Below, in pieces: positions 25,435 through 26,899 of a stretch of 64,000 nucleotides of DNA. The notes under the pieces are model-generated. The model had not been told where the DNA came from and made no database searches. It worked only from the letters and a program-made list of their open reading frames with translations. The DNA lies in assembly GCA_036395115.1 (NCBI GenBank), contig DASWDU010000016.1:1-64000 (forward strand), in the 5' to 3' direction. This stretch comes from Thermoplasmata archaeon (GTDB lineage Archaea; Thermoplasmatota; Thermoplasmata; RBG-16-68-12). The stretch's first letter is position 1, and each line of letters starts with the position of its first letter. Position numbers and translations under genes: made by a program.

Positions 25435-25479
25435 TGTCTCAACCGGACCGACTAACGCGACCGTCCGTTAAGGATTTTA

Positions 25480-25487
25480 CCGCCACC
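25480..25487. repeat. Target-site duplication, left copy
   Basis: CCGCCACC directly precedes the left inverted repeat. The same eight bases occur at 26879-26886. One C is shared with the repeat end on the right, so the duplication is either seven or eight bases. Confidence 0.8.
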
Positions 25488-25512
25488 GGGTTCTGTCACA
25501 AATCGGGTGATG
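25488..25512. repeat. Left terminal inverted repeat of tnpB element
   Basis: It begins GGGTTCTGT and ends TCGGGTGATG, and pairs with the reverse complement of 26855-26879 with mismatches only at positions 10 and 15. The tnpB stop codon (25496-25498) lies inside it, so the repeat encodes the last residues of the protein. Confidence 0.9.
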
Positions 25513-25620
25513 GAATCACGCCCACTTGCGACTCCACTCCGCTCGGCTCGTCCCGTGCGCTCGGTCCTCCTCGGACCAAGTCGTAGAGGGGACTCACGAC
25601 GTCATGGCGGAGGGCACCGG
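25488..25620 (-). ncRNA. Possible omega/reRNA scaffold at tnpB 3' end
   Basis: Known TnpB systems make their guide RNA from the 3' end of tnpB and adjacent DNA. Here the last 130 bp on the coding strand contain a hairpin GGTCC-GAGGA-GGACC (25563-25577) and several GC-rich self-complementary stretches, and run out of the element into the thioredoxin-gene spacer. If used, the guide would start with the flank GGTGGCGG. This is placed by analogy; the boundary is not determined. Confidence 0.35.
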
Positions 25621-26743
25621 GCCGGAACCGTACGGCCCTTGCCAAGGCCTCGTTGGAGGCCAAGGCGGTCTTCAGGATGTTCATGCCCGCGTTGATCTGC
25701 CGGTCCATCTCCCAGTCGCACATCTCGCAGACGAAATCCTGGCCCACCCTATCTCGGCGCCGGGCGCCACATACTGGGCAGGTCTTGGACGTCCATTGGG
25801 GGTTGACCTTGATGATCGGCACGCCGGCGAGGGCGGCCTTGTACTCGATCTGACGGTGGATCTCGGAACGGGGCCAGGCGGACAAGCGACGGTTCATCCG
25901 GTGGGAGCGGCCTCCCGCGCCGTGGAGGGTTAGATTCTCGAGGACGATTGCGGCTCGACGCGACATCGCGGACCCCACGAGCCGCTTGGACACTCGATGG
26001 AGCCTCTGCCGAACTCGGTTCCTCTCTCTGCGGCCCTCTCGATCGAGGAGGATCCGCTGGACGCGTCGGTCCTGGGACTTTTTCCTCGCAAGCCTCCTCC
26101 GTCGTCGGAAGTGAGTCTCCTGAATGCGCCGCACGCCGTCGAACGACACGCGGACGAGCCCCGCAGAATCGCCCGACACATGGACTCCATCGAGGGAATC
26201 CTCGTTCGTGTCGAGGGCGATCGCGCCCCGGGGCTCGTACGGCTTCGGGGCTTCCTTGCGCAGGACGACGATGATCTTCCCCGGGACCACGGTGAGGGAT
26301 CCGAGACTCCATGATGGGTCGCTGAGCATTGATCGGTGCCACTCGGAGAGCGACAGGTGGAGCTGCACCCCCTCCGTCCCCCGGATCGGGATGCGAAGCC
26401 GGCCCGTCTCCCGGTCGAGCCAATAGGACTGGTTCTCGGCCTTGAGCATGAGCCTCCGCATGTAGGGGACGGAGGACCGGTTCTTTCTTCTCAGGCGCCG
26501 GCGATGGGCATTCAGCACCGACAAGGCGACCTCGAAGGCAGACGGGATGTACTGCTTGTACACCGCGTGGCGCGCGCTCAGGTCCGTGTACGCGGCCCGT
26601 GTGAGTCGAGCGCGAGATCGGATGTCGTCCCGCAGGGCGATCCGAATCGATTCGTTCACGAGGAGGCGGAACTCCGCGAGGAGCCAAACGAGACGGGGAT
26701 CCTCCGACGTGACTGGAAAGACAAGGGCCCGGTGGGCGAGCAC
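25496..26743 (-). CDS. tnpB: TnpB RNA-guided endonuclease (IS1341/IS605 OrfB type)
   Basis: 415 residues, a full-length TnpB. The RuvC catalytic acids are present: Asp178 in AIALDTNEDSLDG, Glu269 in AAIVLENL and Asp347 in MDRQINAGMNIL. The zinc finger is CPVC (322/325) and CEMC (339/342). The N-terminal half is the arginine-rich REC/wedge region. The family is known to cut DNA guided by an RNA made from the element's 3' end. The reading frame is intact with a GTG start, and 136 bp of non-coding DNA lie between the start and the right repeat. The C-terminal tail past about 360 probably overlaps the guide-RNA scaffold. Confidence 0.93.
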   Translation of the reverse strand: MLAHRALVFPVTSEDPRLVWLLAEFRLLVNESIRIALRDDIRSRARLTRAAYTDLSARHAVYKQYIPSAFEVALSVLNAHRRRLRRKNRSSVPYMRRLMLKAENQSYWLDRETGRLRIPIRGTEGVQLHLSLSEWHRSMLSDPSWSLGSLTVVPGKIIVVLRKEAPKPYEPRGAIALDTNEDSLDGVHVSGDSAGLVRVSFDGVRRIQETHFRRRRRLARKKSQDRRVQRILLDREGRRERNRVRQRLHRVSKRLVGSAMSRRAAIVLENLTLHGAGGRSHRMNRRLSAWPRSEIHRQIEYKAALAGVPIIKVNPQWTSKTCPVCGARRRDRVGQDFVCEMCDWEMDRQINAGMNILKTALASNEALARAVRFRPGALRHDVVSPLYDLVRGGPSARDEPSGVESQVGVIPSPDL

Positions 26744-26854
26744 GTTTCTCTACTAGGGAAGAGGCTGGCGTCAAGGTGCCTGGGGGAGGTGCCCGAATGT
26801 GAAAATCCGGCTTGGGGAGCAATCAGAGATAGCGTTACCGTGCTTACCATTGCT

Positions 26855-26879
26855 CATCACCCGACTTGTTACAGAACCC
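26855..26879. repeat. Right terminal inverted repeat of tnpB element
   Basis: On the plus strand it begins CATCACCCGA and ends ACAGAACCC. It is the reverse complement of the left repeat except at two positions. Confidence 0.9.
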
Positions 26880-26886
26880 CGCCACC
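26879..26886. repeat. Target-site duplication, right copy
   Basis: CCGCCACC directly follows the right inverted repeat and matches the left copy exactly. Confidence 0.8.
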
Positions 26887-26890
26887 GCAA

Positions 26891-26899
26891 GGTTATTCC
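26891..26899 (+). promoter_or_regulatory. TATA-like box next to the insertion
   Basis: GGTTATTCC begins five bases after the right target duplication and lies about 28 nt upstream of GTG 26923. The insertion therefore appears to have spared the core promoter but separated it from anything further upstream. Confidence 0.45.

Follow-up and report, generated by a model that had tools for sequence, protein, structure and literature searches.

A tnpB gene between IS6-like transposon ends in Thermoplasmata archaea, with a guide RNA that very probably runs through the transposon end

The window analyzed here is a 64,000-nucleotide stretch of contig DASWDU010000016.1 from a Thermoplasmata archaeon (assembly GCA_036395115.1), and the subject of this study is a 1390-bp element within it (25489–26878, GGTT...AACC) whose only gene is tnpB, encoding an RNA-guided nuclease. 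An earlier note on the window had described tnpB alone between 25-bp inverted repeats matching at 23/25 positions, and both points were confirmed by comparison of the repeats and by open reading frame (ORF) and profile matches. The 23/25 match is that of 25488–25512 with 26855–26879; with the tip set by comparison with other copies, the inverted repeats match at 22/25 positions. The left terminal inverted repeat (TIR), GGTTCTGTCACAAATCGGGTGATGG (25489–25513, + strand), is common to 54 left ends, and the right TIR (26854–26878) reads GGTTCTGTAACAAGTCGGGTGATGA on the − strand. Between them, tnpB (25496–26743, − strand) encodes a protein of 415 aa that matches NF040570 guided_TnpB at 117.2 bits (cut-off 100) as well as PF07282 and TIGR01766, and its stop codon falls within the left TIR. 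The element has no DDE transposase gene of its own.

When the element is taken as GGTT...AACC, it is flanked by an exact 9-bp duplication, CCGCCACCG, at 25480–25488 and 26879–26887. The flanking duplication reported previously was therefore exact as claimed, and its length of 7–8 bp was replaced by 9 bp once the tip was fixed. To place these repeats against the background of the window, we considered all 145 inverted 25-mer pairs with an exact 8-nt tip lying 0.3–4 kb apart. The repeats of the element were the best match, and among the ten best pairs listed only this element had an exact 9-bp flanking repeat. Chance repeats were rejected as an explanation because other copies show the same ends and duplications.

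These copies form an element family found in at least two Thermoplasmata families of soil and sediment archaea. The genome from which the window comes (hereafter the host genome; 2.4 Mb, 50 contigs, 98% complete, with many copies at contig ends) has about 5–6 further tnpB copies, on C30, C7, C19, C40 and C42 and on C34 and C10, the last being one element split by assembly. It also has at least six short copies that lack tnpB and share mainly the region 3′ of it. These are miniature inverted-repeat transposable elements (MITEs) of ∼480 bp that carry only the guide RNA (omegaRNA) described below, for example L051, L053, L054 and L055 (C17, C8, C47 and C30:35038). Nearly all copies in the host genome start with GGTTCTGTnnC or a close variant. 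TnpB homologues occur in 20 of the 61 genomes searched, the host included. A second family of the class (G038, G061, G077, G140, G154, G158, G166 and G170) carries elements whose TnpB is mostly 43–50% identical and which share the long repeat GGTTCTGTnnCnnnnTCGGGTGRTG; the same TIR thus surrounds tnpB in both families, with TnpBs down to 44% identity. The second family also has independent tnpB-less copies of 300–450 bp that keep the omegaRNA (L139, L140, L142, L146 and L219 in G061; L152, L153, L155 and L235 in G077; L220), most of them with exact or near-exact 9-bp duplications. Matches to the TIR pattern across all genomes were mostly chance in bacteria, and in archaea were tnpB or omegaRNA copies, remnants, or IS6-like DDE elements. 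No close TnpB relatives were found in viral contigs or plasmids.

We analyzed target duplications in the 23 copies, with or without tnpB, in which both junctions could be read. All retain the same ends and duplications of 8–9 bp, 9 bp in most and 8 bp in three, and the duplication is exact in 15/23. Fourteen copies have exact 9-bp duplications: the window element, the C34/C10 copy, L082, L142, L146, L148, L152, L153, L162, L172, L219, L220, L224 and L235. The joined flanks of five insertions in the host genome were then compared with relatives. For four sibling insertions (C30, C7, C47 and C34/C10), genomes of the same genus have uninterrupted orthologous sites in which homology crosses the junction, the cleanest being C47 (GCTTTGCCGGGAGGAAGGCTTTCAT). 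The window element itself lies between a redoxin gene on its left and, on its right, a small ORF without a Pfam match followed by CTP synthase, an assignment made by reading the sequence. In the same-genus genome G013, redoxin and CTP synthase are adjacent and the element is absent, with the left homology extending to 25483, five bases from the insertion point. The earlier note had named the lack of any second copy or empty site anywhere as telling against its proposal; several tnpB copies, the tnpB-less copies and many more in relatives were found, along with the four empty sites.

Whose ends these are was addressed by a search for the DDE_Tnp_IS240 domain in 200 genomes of the class, which gave 24 carriers. 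At least nine IS6-like (PF13610/NF033587) elements in the class have GGTTCTGT-like tips and exact 9-bp duplications: L265 (TTTCGGGCC), L266 (GCTTGATAC), L268 (CTAATATAA), L270 (CTATTGCTC), L273 (GTTCGGAGC; TCGGGTGGTG), L298, L303, L306 and L308. Their proteins match Pfam PF13610, and against the NCBIfam IS6 profile (cut-off 125) L268 scores 148.9 bits and L273 113.8, just below. A Nitrososphaerales element, L213, has the tips GGTTCTGTTC...TCGGGTGATG and an 8-bp duplication, and TCGGGTGRTG is also present in the TIRs of L273 and L213. Archaeal IS6-like elements are described with inverted repeats of at least 18 bp and duplications of 8 or 9 bp (PMC6807381). The Y1 transposase TnpA (PF01797) is absent from the host genome and from 15 of the 17 other carriers tested (16/18 in all); Y1 genes are present in G038 and G166. 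Because DDE elements have such tips and 9-bp duplications, and because Y1 TnpA is missing from the host and most carriers, the ends of the tnpB elements are, by sequence comparison, IS6-like. A resemblance to IS6-family ends had been proposed, as had DDE-encoding elements with similar ends; both were found, the ends being similar in their tips, with an archaeal IS6-like DDE element, and not bacterial IS6 proper, as the partner. The host genome has an IS6-like transposase ORF of 385 aa (C34:68220-68624; L018/L309) that is a candidate helper. L189, from Nitrosopumilus, was considered as a partner-type element and rejected, being a DDE fragment by one tip for which no partner end was found.

To define the RNA encoded at the left end, we aligned 24 left ends from the order to which the window belongs, over the region 3′ of tnpB. 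The alignments, here and for the second family, were built by sequence and not fitted to structures. The predicted omegaRNA scaffold (25489–25682, − strand) overlaps the 3′ end of tnpB and has seven covarying helices comprising 41 pairs, of which 95% are paired and 20 show changes on both sides. Double-change cells numbered 99 against 36 in shuffles (0/500), and slid controls gave only 41–50% paired. The last helix pairs the scaffold strand GTCGCAAG with the TIR (..TTGTGAC|AGAACC). Counted alone, this stem gave 27 double-change cells and the shuffles 11 (0/500); its counterpart in the second family (24 sequences) gave 12 versus 4.8 (0/500), with slid controls far lower. Kinship among the sequences can inflate such double-change counts, an effect that the slid controls do not show. 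Because the terminal stem formed with the TIR covaries, the omegaRNA very probably continues through the end of the transposon, and after the stem would come AGAACC, followed by the duplication. With the TIR included in the terminal stem, the guide should therefore start at the element border, within the duplication. From this stem and from TnpB biology, the predicted guide is CGGTGGCGGTAAAATCCTTA (25469–25488, − strand), the duplication and outer flank read outward, and its first 9 nt would be the left copy of the duplication read on the − strand. Short tnpB-less copies hold the paired positions with different base pairs, so constraint seems to act on their RNA as well. An Rfam search of the element returned no known family.

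The nuclease itself appears intact. The RuvC triad (D180, E271 and D349) is conserved in 29–30 of 30 TnpBs, and the triad together with the cysteines of the C4 zinc ribbon, also intact in the window protein, in 28–30 of 30 copies. Because these catalytic and zinc-ribbon residues are conserved, the sequences speak for a working nuclease and against a passenger in decay. Cas12f and TnpB structures (8hr5, 9nzp and 9nzq) share the C-terminal RuvC and zinc-ribbon similarity; none is a close sequence relative, the best E-value being about 6e-12 over the C-terminal part only.

Insertion sites have a motif and a fixed orientation. TT at −12/−11, forming a TTN that touches the 9-bp duplication, occurs in 30/36 right flanks, upstream of tnpB, versus 7/54 left flanks (p 1.6e-11), and the right flanks have an A/T-rich TATA-like stretch at −19 to −16. 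TTN adjoins the duplication on the right in 22 of the 23 copies that have one, and on the left in 3. At the window site, the motif is TTG (26888–26890, − strand; CAA on the + strand), the proposed target-adjacent motif (TAM), followed at 26893–26897 (+ strand) by TTATT, a TATA-like stretch of the neighbor gene's presumed promoter whose spacing is similar in most copies. In autonomous IS6-like elements, TATA..TTN plus 9 bp lies upstream of the gene in 3 cases and downstream in 4; the contrast with the 19:0 of tnpB/omegaRNA elements among one-sided cases has p 0.002. We dropped the reading of TTN as purely a TAM since autonomous elements show it too, which leaves only the fixed side as evidence. 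A TTN that is both the target motif of the transposase and the TAM of TnpB, with selection for the correct orientation, would fit these data.

Several features of the sites and ends were recorded apart from this argument. Autonomous archaeal IS6-like elements (L265, L273, L303, L306 and L308) sit about 9 bp from promoter sequences resembling a transcription factor B recognition element and TATA box, which suggests promoter-directed target choice. A block upstream of tnpB, GGGGGAGGTGCCCGAATGTGAAAATCC (26782–26808), is conserved, by sequence comparison, in full and tnpB-less copies of the genus and is probably the tnpB/omegaRNA promoter. At the right ends of G038, G166 and G170 copies (e.g., L093, L095, L162 and L168), a 10-bp palindrome, CTACATGTAG or one-base variants of it, is conserved upstream of tnpB as a possible promoter or operator. 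The omegaRNA-only MITEs of the host genome share a ∼230-bp internal segment between omegaRNA and right end, and some begin directly after the stop codon of a gene. In G154, an element of ∼130 bp (L166:595-720) has the two inverted repeats but lacks tnpB as well as the omegaRNA. The intergenic site of the C7 insertion holds unrelated stretches of 1.5–3.4 kb in other members of the genus (L344 and L345), a possible insertion hot spot.

Together, we propose that the window element is a non-autonomous archaeal IS6-like DDE transposon with tnpB as cargo, whose omegaRNA extends through the transposon end and whose nuclease homes on TTN sites, and we assign this explanation as a whole a probability of roughly 0.85. 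The earlier note had likewise proposed a DDE-type cassette moved in trans, and the family, ends, duplications and empty sites support the cassette by comparison. Mobilization in trans is what we infer strongly, and homing by TnpB is what we infer with moderate confidence. An IS6-like (DDE_Tnp_IS240) transposase would mobilize the element in trans, duplicating 9 bp of the target. The tnpB transcript would end in the omegaRNA, with a 3′ terminal stem made, as covariation indicates, of an internal strand and the left TIR, and the guide would begin at the border with the duplication. With the right end adjoining TTN-(9 bp), an empty site would present TTN and a full guide match, that is, a TnpB target. 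A filled site would present TTN, 9 nt and then the transposon end, so that the full match is absent; the guide match at the opposite junction would follow the transposon end and not TTN. TnpB would then cut chromosomes lacking or having lost the element, leading to copy-back by recombination, as the orientation bias and known TnpB function suggest. Insertions in the wrong orientation would have no TAM and would not be maintained, so only the correct orientation would be kept, and the tnpB-less omegaRNA copies would probably use TnpB in trans. The fullest version of this model, in which a prokaryotic RNA-guided nuclease has become functionally joined to a DDE transposon, the TIR is both transposase binding site and guide-RNA 3′ stem, TTN is both target motif and TAM, the 9-bp duplication is the guide seed, and homing fixes orientation even for omegaRNA-only MITEs borrowing TnpB, stands in our judgment at even odds.

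Some observations weigh against this proposal. No single genome was found in which a tnpB element occurs together with an intact autonomous element whose ends are nearly identical, and several carriers of tnpB elements have no PF13610 gene. No recognizable ends were found near the host IS6-like gene at C34:68220, which was rejected as the partner element for this reason. L144 and L168 have no duplication, and L093 has only an offset repeat. At the window site only the left flank aligns to the element-free G013 genome and the right flank does not. TTN and the TATA-like context also occur at autonomous IS6-like elements, and TTN alone is thus no evidence for a TAM. Lastly, orientation could stem from unequal ends or from host selection against reading into a neighbor's promoter.

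Other explanations were weighed against the same data. Movement by a Y1 (IS200/IS605) or TnpB-mediated route, with accidental repeats and duplications, has in its favor that tnpB usually lives in such elements and that G038 and G166 have Y1 genes; the exact 9-bp duplications in 14 copies, the empty sites, the lack of a Y1 gene in the host and most carriers, and the similar ends on DDE elements make it scarcely credible. A single entry of an ordinary IS605/IS1341-type tnpB element into an IS6-like MITE, with the composite passively carried and the repeats unrelated to TnpB, would account for foreign ends around tnpB and may well be the ultimate origin. However, there is no inner boundary, the terminal stem of the omegaRNA is formed with the inverted repeat and covaries in two families, and the tnpB-less copies retain the omegaRNA. 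As an account of the present elements, we find passive carriage quite improbable.

The oriented TTN is a closer matter. It could reflect purely the target preference of the DDE transposase combined with unequal ends, with no role for TnpB in the placement or persistence of copies. One end of autonomous IS6-like elements also bears TATA..TTN plus 9 bp, some copies have left and right inverted repeats that are spaced differently, and tnpB-less copies have the same orientation. Against this stands the absence of a fixed side in autonomous elements (3:4 versus 19:0), a small sample in which the end type may not be readable from the direction of the DDE gene; we consider this explanation a serious contender at somewhat less than an even chance. 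Alternatively, reversed elements, which would transcribe omegaRNA into the promoter of the neighbor gene, could be removed by host selection. The motif is located a short way upstream of an archaeal TATA-like box, and tnpB is always directed away from it, yet such selection leaves the occurrence of autonomous elements in both orientations unexplained, and we regard it as a live though rather unlikely rival.

The elements differ in definable ways from known systems. Similar to IS1341 and other TnpB-only IS200/IS605 elements, they have tnpB as sole gene, an omegaRNA overlapping its 3′ end and a guide outside the element. In contrast, IS1341 lacks inverted repeats and target duplications (PMC3627910), both of which the archaeal elements have, and the Y1 TnpA (PF01797) expected in the element or genome of an IS200/IS605 member is absent from the host genome. 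With archaeal IS6-like elements (PF13610/NF033587; clades a–d, PMC6807381) they share GG.TCTGT-type tips, long inverted repeats and 8–9 bp duplications (9 in ISH15), differing in having no transposase and an RNA-guided nuclease as cargo. The parallel drawn earlier with eukaryotic Fanzor genes holds: Fanzor1 and Fanzor2* in TIR transposons (e.g., SfAV Fanzor1; PMC3627910, PMC10711439) are likewise TnpB-family nucleases forming the sole gene of a non-autonomous TIR element with target duplications. The TIRs of SfAV Fanzor1 are reported as part of the guide-RNA scaffold (PMC10711439), as the inverted repeat is of the archaeal omegaRNA. The duplication is proposed to lie in the scaffold for Fanzor1 whereas it is predicted to lie in the guide here, and the archaeal TnpB has a D-E-D triad and is encoded between IS6-like ends. 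MITE derivatives of the IS6 family are known, and the one passenger-bearing member listed comes without mention of TnpB (PMC7986276). TnpB elements are described as IS605, IS607 or IS1341 (PMC9956272, PMC10711439), and TnpB-only elements as lacking TIRs and duplications (PMC3627910). We found no report of a prokaryotic TnpB in a DDE/TIR element in the literature, a search that most subscription papers and preprints lay outside, so that priority is uncertain.

The elements described here place TnpB in a setting different from that in which it is usually considered. Descriptions of prokaryotic TnpB pair it with Y1 (IS605) or serine (IS607) transposases, neither of which makes a target duplication. 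A TnpB inside a duplication-making DDE element gives a prokaryotic precedent for the Fanzor transposons, and it raises the testable question of how an RNA-guided nuclease stays useful after a change of transposase. The way in which the transposon end covaries with the guide-RNA scaffold offers a concrete and measurable answer to that question, and the natural omegaRNA-only MITEs may represent a trans-acting guide system.
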